Part shown: in pieces, positions 12,298 through 59,709 of the stretch | Numbering within the stretch: position 1 is the first letter of the stretch | How the letters are laid out: each line of letters begins with the position of its first letter | Source: Magnetococcales bacterium | GTDB lineage: Bacteria; Pseudomonadota; Magnetococcia; Magnetococcales; UBA8363 | Length of the DNA: 64,000 bases | Direction of reading: 5' to 3' | Assembly: GCA_002753515.1 (NCBI GenBank) | Contig: PEAK01000005.1 | Location: forward strand, 1 to 64,000 | Program-made: the position numbers and the translations under genes | The notes under the pieces: generated by a model | Databases searched by the model: none | Told to the model about the DNA's origin: nothing | The model's input: the letters and a program-made list of their open reading frames with translations, nothing else

Positions 12298-12429
12298 ACA
12301 GTTTTCTCCCCCTGATACAATTGGGATACCAACAAATTTTTTGTCAAGCATAACACGGTCGACGAAAAAGACCAACAAAAGCCTCAAGGTCACGTTAAAA
12401 AAAATACCATCGAGACCTGGGGAAGTGTA

Positions 12430-12584
12430 ATTCTACTTTGTCACATTTCCAGTTCGGAGTTTGTGGCCTCTGGATTCCCGCTTTTGCGGGAATGACGGTT
12501 ACCTTTTTTCAACGGATTTTCTGCTTCGTCATCCCCGCGAAAGCGGGGATCCAGAGCGTATATTCTAATGTGACAAAGTAGAAG
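12430..12584. mobile_element. MITE family A, copy 1 (155 bp, intergenic)
   Basis: A 155-bp non-coding element has terminal inverted repeats ATTCTACTTTGTCACATT and its complement, flanked on both sides by TA, the usual target duplication of IS630/Tc1-mariner-type transposition. Inside are two REP-like palindromes of the GGGGATCCAG / CCCGCTTTTGCGGG type. A copy at 46068-46222 is identical except for the last base, so movement was recent. No transposase is present in either copy; mobilisation in trans is inferred. Confidence 0.85.
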
Positions 12585-12656
12585 TAAAGAAGGATCTTCT
12601 ACATCAGCCCTGCCAAAGCGTGATTTGATTTCGCTGGACTAATAATCAAGGGGTGG

Positions 12657-45976: not shown

Positions 45977-46397
45977 TCAGTGCCCGCCAATGAGGAGCCT
46001 TGCCAGCGCAAACATGGAACCGATAATCAATGCCGTCTGACCAATGAACATTCCAGCAACCCACTTAATTCTACTTTGTCACATTTCCAGTTCGGAGTTT
46101 GTGGCCTCTGGATTCCCGCTTTTGCGGGAATGACGGTTACCTTTTTTCAACGGATTTTCTGCTTCGTCATCCCCGCGAAAGCGGGGATCCAGAGCGTATA
46201 TTCTAATGTGACAAAGTAGAATTAAGAATATCAGCTTTGGATTCGTCAATGTCTCGCTTGGTAGCCAGTTCATCAAGGCGTGCATCTTGAGCTACCTTGA
46301 TCGTGTCAGACAGGGCTTCAGCCTGTACTTCGTCAAAACCGGCGGCCTTCAGGCGTTTGATGGCAGCGTAAGTGTCAAATGCAACGGCGTTTCCCAT
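45977..46397 (-). pseudogene. DUF1640-like coiled-coil membrane protein, split by MITE A
   Basis: From 46397, behind AAGGAGG, a minus-strand frame encodes MGNAVAFDTYAAIKRLKAAG and a helical region typical of DUF1640 (CCDC90-like) proteins, then runs into MITE A and stops six codons inside it. Removing the 155-bp element (46068-46222) and one TA rejoins the frame to 45977 and adds KWVAGMFIGQTALIIGSMFALARLLIGGH in two parts around the junction, a C-terminal membrane helix as expected. The restored protein is 87 residues. In its present state the product lacks its anchor, so it is probably non-functional. Confidence 0.75.
46068..46222. mobile_element. MITE family A, copy 2 (155 bp), inside a gene
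   Basis: This copy is identical to 12430-12584 apart from the last base. Its ends are perfect inverted repeats ATTCTACTTTGTCACATT and complement, and both sides carry TA. The insertion interrupts a small DUF1640-like gene whose two halves fit in frame when the element and one TA are removed, which directly confirms the element's boundaries. Confidence 0.92.
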
Positions 46398-57481: not shown

Positions 57482-57970
57482 TGCGACCCGCCCCCCTGTA
57501 TGGCGACACCATGCGTCTCGCCGCCCTGATTCTCCGCGTGACCGAAGCGCCAACGTTCAGGCAATCGCCATTGGGGTGGCGCTTGCAGGAGGGGGTGTTG
57601 CGTCTTGTGGATCATGTGGTACTGGCGTTGGCCGGACAGGAGCGGCAACAGCGCATCGCTGCTGCCGATGCCGAACTGCAAACTTTGCGGGCTCACTGTT
57701 TTCTTGCCCTGCAAATGGCCTTGATGGAGGAAGATCTTTTTCTAAACCGCACCCAGCACGGGAAACGTAGTTTCCCGGCGTCATCCCCGCGAAAGCGGGG
57801 ATCCAGAAAGTCAGGGAAGGTAGAAAAGTCCTCTGGATCCCCGCTTTTGCGGGGATGACAATAACTACACATTCCAAGATAGCTGCGGTTTAACAGTGGC
57901 CGAAGCGGCGCAAAAAGTGGGTCGGCAGTTGGGTGGATGGCGTAAAAAAGGGCAGGCCAAATCTGCGTGA
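57481..57970 (+). pseudogene. avd: avd (DGR accessory protein), split by MITE B
   Basis: Avd is a small helical-bundle protein that forms a ring, binds the reverse transcriptase and TR RNA, and is required for mutagenic retrohoming in studied DGRs. The first 88 codons (to LMEEDLFL) are intact and start one base into the HTH stop. A 146-bp MITE then interrupts; the frame runs on to a stop at 57858 with 37 foreign residues. If the element and one TA are removed, codon 88 joins TVAEAAQKVGRQLGGWRKK and ends at 57970, giving 113 residues with the LGGW C-terminus usual for Avd. As it stands, the last helix is lost, so function is doubtful. Confidence 0.8.
57745..57890. mobile_element. MITE family B, copy 1 (146 bp), inside avd
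   Basis: The element has short inverted ends AACCGCA / TGCGGTT, TA on both sides, and an inner pair of CATCCCCGCGAAAGCGGGGATCCAG-like palindromes in inverted orientation (positions 57778-57860). A second copy lies in the opposite orientation at 59485-59631. It has no transposase. Joining its flanks restores the avd frame, which fixes the borders. Confidence 0.88.
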
Positions 57971-59480: not shown

Positions 59481-59484
59481 TTTA

Positions 59485-59631
59485 AACCGCAGCTATCTTG
59501 GAATATGCAGTTATTGTCATCCCCGCGAAAGCGGGGATCCAGAAAGTTAGAGAAAGGTGTGTAGACTCCTTGGATCCCCGCTTTCGCGGGGATGACGCTA
59601 GAAAACTACGTGTCCCGTGTTGGTTGCGGTT
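59485..59631. mobile_element. MITE family B, copy 2 (147 bp)
   Basis: This copy is inverted relative to the one in avd and has the same AACCGCA/TGCGGTT ends, TA on both sides and the same two REP-like palindromes. It is inserted between the TGACA array and the VR2 hairpin block. The two copies differ at more than a dozen positions between and beside the palindromes, so they are not a fresh duplication of one another. Confidence 0.85.
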
Positions 59632-59709
59632 TAAACGGACAAAATCAGGCGGAAAACGTCAAATTTGTCACTTTTACGGACAAAAAACGGCTTTTTTCGT
59701 CATTTTGAA

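Follow-up and report, generated by a model that had tools for sequence, protein, structure and literature searches.

A MITE with IS701-type ends interrupts a CCDC90/DUF1640-like gene in a Magnetococcales bacterium and encloses CGTC-tagged palindromes

Introduction

According to the accessible text of De Palmenaer et al. 2008 (PMC2266710), elements of the IS701 family are 1400-1550 bp long, duplicate 4 bp of target DNA, and carry ends of the consensus ---YACT-Y--YR. The CGTC-REPs are short palindromes that the available sections of their survey (PMC3733652) define by a CGTC tag, a stem of 8-9 bp, and a loop of 4-5 bp; the same sections describe them as being without a dedicated transposase (Di Nocera et al. 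2013, PMC3733652). In the part of the openly accessible literature combining the terms MITE and IS701 that was consulted (subscription papers and ISfinder thus lie outside it), we found no description of an IS701 MITE, and the word IS701 is absent from the review PMC10969869.

Here, we describe a 153-bp insert, designated MITE A, which splits a CCDC90/DUF1640-like gene. The insert is very probably a type II MITE, in which only the ends match an autonomous element, and would be moved in trans by an IS701-family transposase. Its core is a pair of inverted CGTC-REPs.

Results

The interrupted gene

The reading frames of the window (the whole stretch of 64,000 nucleotides that was analysed) and an intact orthologue in G001, a genome of the same genus, bear out the initial annotation that the gene is split by a MITE (Table 1). 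Joining the flanks restores the frame, ...ESKADIL-KWVAGMFIGQTALIIGSMFALARLLIGGH, exactly as had been read before. The product now has 64 residues with the end ...DILNSTLSH, and the C-terminal hydrophobic segment is absent. The CCDC90-like model PF07798 matched the intact G001 orthologue with an E-value of 1.6e-07 and 31.8 bits, and the truncated window copy with 24.4 bits, against a curated cut-off of 33.5.

Table 1. Features of the interrupted gene, of the inserted element, and of related elements. Coordinates are those of the window except in the last row.
Feature	Coordinates	Strand	Remarks
CCDC90/DUF1640-like gene, interrupted	45977..46397	minus	ATG at 46397, TGA at 45977
N-terminal piece of the gene	46222-46397	minus	
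C-terminal piece of the gene	45977-46068	minus	one TTAA is part of the insertion
MITE A, 153 bp, non-coding	46069..46221	plus	identical to the copy at 12431-12583
Left terminal inverted repeat	46069..46085	plus	TTCTACTTTGTCACATT, 17 bp
Right terminal inverted repeat	46205..46221	minus	17 bp, perfect
Target duplication TTAA, left copy	46065..46068		single TTAA in G001
Target duplication TTAA, right copy	46222..46225		
CGTC-REP unit 1 in MITE A core	46112..46134	minus	
CGTC-REP unit 2 in MITE A core	46166..46188	plus	inverted to unit 1
Second MITE A copy, identical	12431..12583	plus	no frame spans the rejoined site
Target duplication GTAA of second copy	12427-12430 and 12584-12587		
MITE B copies	57744-57891 and 59484-59632		148-149 bp, ends AACCGCAGCTATC/AACCGCAACCA, TA-flanked
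MITE ends in G001:C85	3072 and 3208		

At an E-value of 0.001, the small CCDC90/DUF1640-like protein had 36 matches in its own genome, both pieces of the broken gene included; the family is thus large. It is strongly expanded in this genome (G000) and also large in several relatives. Because so many paralogues exist, the loss of the window gene was probably tolerated, that is to say, it was probably neutral.

A second CCDC90/DUF1640 gene of the same genome also contains a MITE A (L225 / G000:C106:29247-29399). This element follows the motif KRDI and lies within about a codon of the aligned place of the window insertion; the frame of its gene continues through the element and gains about 46 residues. 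Redundancy of the family, together with a common TTAA-rich motif, may explain why two of its genes were hit.

Structure and copies of MITE A

MITE A is short and non-coding, has perfect terminal inverted repeats, and lacks a transposase; with the flanking bases included, the inverted repeat comprises 22 nt at 100% complementarity. With up to 3 mismatches allowed, the window contains 4 matches to ATTCTACTTTGTCACATT, compared with 0.07 expected from shuffles; for TTCTACTTTGTCACATT, with up to 2 mismatches allowed, the own genome contains 145 matches, compared with one for the reversed control. The two window copies, which had been thought to differ by one base, match at 153 of 153 positions, and the base in question is part of the duplicated target, which is GTAA at 12430 and TTAA here. 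No Rfam family reached the gathering threshold within the window.

The element is flanked by a perfect 4-bp NTAN duplication in 29 of 33 distinct own-genome insertions. In a smaller set of 32 own-genome copies, for which one flank pair was listed from two contigs, 28 had a perfect 4-bp duplication, and the duplicated unit was TTAA in 15 of those. Readings taken directly from sequence comprise the element, its ends, its copy number, the 4-bp duplication, and the empty site of the relative described below.

One further copy (L404 / G000:C18:8521-8673) lies in a frame that resembles, by eye, a putative type I restriction methylase, possibly of the HsdM type, with an NPPFG motif. In 2 composites, a MITE B is nested in a MITE A (L047 / G000:C45:45250-45577, 328 bp, and L049 / G000:C98:105585-106057, 473 bp), and both have perfect 4-bp outer duplications.

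IS701 elements with the same ends

The MITE A end fits the IS701 consensus at 7 of 7 fixed positions. Within the same order, genome G044 contains a 1529-bp element that has both 17-bp ends exact, is flanked by a duplicated ATAG, and encodes a transposase matching the IS701 model NF033540 with an E-value of 3.8e-97. A related element of 1525 bp in G013, of the same order, matches NF033540 with an E-value of 2.5e-100; one of its ends has one mismatch, and the two copies of its duplication agree in 3 of 4 bases. Protein matches to the G013 IS701 at an E-value of 1e-20 or better were present in 4 of 48 genomes of the order, 2 of them as fragments.

IS701 elements with MITE A-type ends are present in other phyla as well as in relatives. 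The genome_contigs collection was scanned for TANTTCTACTTTGTCACATT, which matched in at least 100 stretches, and ends were paired if they lay 60-3000 bp from each other and had no more than 2 mismatches. Among the stretches listed, at least 38 end pairs were found; the 4-bp flanks were identical in 26 of the 38 and not identical in 12, all from other genomes, and 30 of the 38 pairs, again among the matches listed, had a TA in the middle of the flank on both sides. In each of 4 listed pairs (L274, L282, L284, and L346), which span 1516-2817 bp, IS701 matches lie between the ends, and the 3 of their proteins that were scanned all match NF033540.

In the own genome, numerous contigs break off some 121 bp into elements with TTCTACTTTGTCACATT-type ends, as expected if the assembler collapses a long repeat. 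These contig ends fall into types A (8 places), A' (8), C (10), and B (10 contigs in a sample in which 2 contigs were listed twice). Type B encodes EVVRQLEERHRKRQISIDLAYIKQRVTQESASG, which is identical to the C-terminus of the L274 IS701 at 22 of 33 residues (score 100; best of 500 shuffles, 39). These IS701 C-terminal codons adjoining such ends are a reading of the DNA itself, as are the IS701 elements of other genomes that share the ends. Type C, one of the 2 own right-end types, encodes no recognised IS701 tail, and pairing of the 4 types into whole elements was not achieved. Since the own assembly has no match to DDE_5 (PF13546) and no IS701 coding sequence, the mover is visible there only through its ends; an intact own-genome IS701 element was searched for and not found, and seems to have been collapsed where contigs end.

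A plasmid search with the type-B end gave nothing beyond a 26-bp match within a gene for an ABC transporter, and this was disregarded. In viral contigs, 3 stretches contain the end sequence; all 3 ends lie within reading frames of phage-like character, no second end was found, and they were taken as chance matches.

CGTC-REP units within the MITEs

The 2 units of the MITE A core read CGTC-ATCCCCGC-GAAA-GCGGGGAT and have the tag, the stem, and the loop that define CGTC-REPs; the core folds with a z-score of -7.3. By a strict pattern, all 8 units of the window lie in such frames, 4 in MITE A and 4 in MITE B. The core of MITE B likewise contains 2 CGTC-REPs, with their tags outward, and 37 end pairs of MITE B were found in 848 kb, mostly 148-149 bp in length and with TA at both borders.

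The own-genome DNA scanned, 848,155 bp with the window included, contains 119 CGTC-REP units at up to 3 mismatches. Nearness was defined as at most 160 bp from MITE A ends (up to 3 mismatches) or 130 bp from MITE B ends (up to 6 mismatches). On at least 1 side, 116 of the 119 units are near an A or B end, compared with 759 of 20,000 random positions (3.8%); 3 units are near neither. By eye, these 3 (G000:C1:44110 and C45:78724-78801) sit in an apparent third inverted frame with ends CTTGATCATCGTTTCG. No free unit was found in the 848-kb own-genome sample.

Two MITE B copies (G000:C45:90924-91072 and 91539-91687) lie 615 bp apart, and their identical flanks suggest a local duplication. An IS630-type element is present within another MITE B copy (L057, on G000:C84, around 5224). 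Assignment of MITE B to the own IS630 copies was considered and found unsupported: this IS630 has itself inserted into a MITE B, and the end of it that can be seen is a different one.

The same ends in other hosts

In a fold test that comprised 26 elements from genome_contigs beside the window element and covered neither the full-size elements nor several short ones (for example, L281, L298, L327, and L350), the cores of 18 of the 26 non-window elements folded more stably than shuffles, with z-scores of -3 or lower; the other 8, several of them from Achromatium with z-scores near 0, had no such stability. In the gamma-proteobacterial genome G048 (L258), 1 of 76 matches spans the whole element, and matches to its GTAG-tagged core occur at many sites. 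Of the 46 matches in a KSB1 genome, the majority take in all or almost all of the element, and a separate group matches the core only. Elements with these ends also occur in G002, of the same genus as the window; their visible subterminal sequence is type-B-like and contains no palindromes. Given these palindrome-free elements and the weakly folding cores in Achromatium, palindromic cargo between IS701-type ends is common and not required.

Palindromes as possible cargo

Since the core of MITE A is a CGTC-REP pair, we infer, for direction and cause alike, that the element spreads these palindromes as cargo. We tentatively extend this reading as follows: (i) CGTC-REPs may have spread in this lineage as MITE cargo between at least 2 types of ends, IS701-type with NTAN and TA-flanked; and (ii) one conserved 17-bp IS701 end may wrap whatever palindrome the host carries, namely, a CGTC-REP in Magnetococcales, a GTAG pair in the gamma-proteobacterium, and hairpins in Desulfobacterota and KSB1, so that transposons would act as interchangeable palindrome vehicles.

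Doubtful, in our judgement, is the alternative that CGTC-REPs are not cargo and instead have a mobility of their own with MITEs as preferred landing sites, or enter MITEs by gene conversion. Such a history would fit a core unit that is common to frames A, B, and apparently the third, with different spacers and orientations, and it would fit the G048 palindrome, present at many places with its framed element covered by a single match; the MITEs of G002 and Achromatium, which have these ends and no such palindromes, point the same way. It is, however, at odds with the position of nearly all own-genome units near A or B ends, with the apparent third frame around the remainder, and with the missing free units in that sample.

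Age of the insertion

The intact orthologue in G001 (C156:6169-6429) encodes 87 residues and is 95% identical in amino acids over all 87. Screening for an empty site, which the initial annotation had proposed as a check, identified it in this orthologue, with a single TTAA and an intact frame: the G001 sequence ...GATATTC-TTAA-GTGGGTTGCTGG... corresponds to ...GATATTC-TTAA-(MITE)-TTAA-GTGGGTTGCTGG... in the window. The DNA beside the site is 98% identical (1140/1167) on one side and 87% (1203/1384) on the other.

Exactly 153 bp is the length of 28 MITE A copies. Compared with the window copy, 6 of the 28 show no difference in any letter and 17 have at most 5 differing positions; 10 reach scores of 140-142 of 153, and the score of one is 122. 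The best MITE A match in G001 is 92% identical, and the subfamily to which the window copy belongs was not detected in that genome. Copy identities and the empty site, taken together, support a recent burst of one MITE A subfamily and do not prove present activity. The earlier view of the event as recent therefore holds in the form of fairly recent, and the gene break is an ordinary, fairly recent MITE insertion.

It is highly improbable that the insertion is instead old and fixed in the lineage, with a recent look produced by gene conversion that homogenised the copies. That reading gains from the fact that G001, a 75%-complete genome, supplied the only close uninterrupted orthologue among the 31 genomes searched, the next-best matches being at most 70% identical and taken as paralogues; it has to contend with that same orthologue lacking the insert beside 1167 bp of 98% identical DNA, with the perfect 4-bp duplication at the window site, and with a relative in which the window subfamily was not detected.

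Target site and proposed mobilisation

The insertion had been placed at a TA. The TA is indeed central in the target, and the duplicated unit is the 4-bp NTAN rather than TA. An active transposase of a TA-targeting type had also been predicted for this genome; the TA-targeting type does not agree with the duplication, and an active transposase is plausible, although the assembly yielded no IS701 coding sequence and shows only the outer ~121 bp of full-size elements at contig ends. An IS630/mariner-type mover, which the initial annotation had favoured, is not supported, because the duplication is 4 bp and the ends follow the IS701 consensus.

That MITE A is an IS630/mariner-type MITE inserted at TA can scarcely be entertained: although every NTAN target has a central TA, which allows the flanks to be taken for a TA duplication, and although the own genome contains both IS630 (PF13358) matches and a genuinely TA-flanked MITE B, the bases on either side of the TA are duplicated too (29/33), the 3 PF13358 matches, on C27, C84, and C108, lie in stretches (L056, L057, and L058) without a MITE A end, and the full-size elements with these ends, 4 pairs from genome_contigs plus 2 in relatives, encode IS701 and none IS630. 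This candidate was rejected.

In the preferred reading, mobilisation by IS701, a transposase of this family would bind the 17-bp ends TTCTACTTTGTCACATT and insert MITE A at a 4-bp NTAN target, which at the window site would be TTAA; host repair would then duplicate the 4 bp. The window insertion would have cut the CCDC90/DUF1640-like gene ahead of its C-terminal hydrophobic segment. The in-genome IS701 copies would presumably be intact and would have done the moving. Against this reading stand the own assembly without IS701 coding sequence, the type C ends, the end types that did not pair into whole elements, the imperfect G013 duplication, and the 12 end pairs of other genomes with unequal 4-bp flanks.

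Comparison with known systems

The interest of the locus lies in the combination of mover and cargo: MITE A packages a widespread palindrome for which a mover was previously not known. It thereby offers a candidate mechanism for the spread of CGTC-tagged palindromes, a question left open in the accessible text of the 2013 survey (PMC3733652). The exact end sequence can be used to find IS701-type MITEs across phyla, with the caution that NTAN duplications can easily be mistaken for TA ones.

Compared with the IS701 family as described in the available parts of PMC2266710, MITE A is alike in the end consensus and the 4-bp duplication, and its autonomous partners in G044 and G013 are IS701-like in size (1400-1550 bp) and in the transposase model NF033540; MITE A differs in that it has no transposase and that only its ends are common to the full-size elements. 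MITEPye1 of Paracoccus yeei, according to the accessible text of PMC11578231, was likewise assigned to an IS family by its matching ends, but that family is IS1182.

QMITE2 of Coxiella burnetii (PMC5896051, PMC10969869, in their accessible sections) resembles MITE A in having a REP palindrome inside a MITE, and we count as a likeness that its shorter copies resemble bare REPs. By contrast, its tag is GTAG rather than CGTC, its duplications are 7-11 bp, and those sections state no link to IS701.

The closest counterparts of the MITE A core are the CGTC-REPs themselves, including dRS3 of Neisseria, which share the form GTCATYCCCGC-loop-GCGGGRAT, the CGTC tag at one end, and the occurrence in inverted pairs (PMC3733652, available sections). 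The tags of MITE A face inward, which is the TT arrangement that the same sections report as rare for CGTC repeats. Unlike the CGTC-REPs as published there, the units of MITE A and MITE B are framed by transposon ends.
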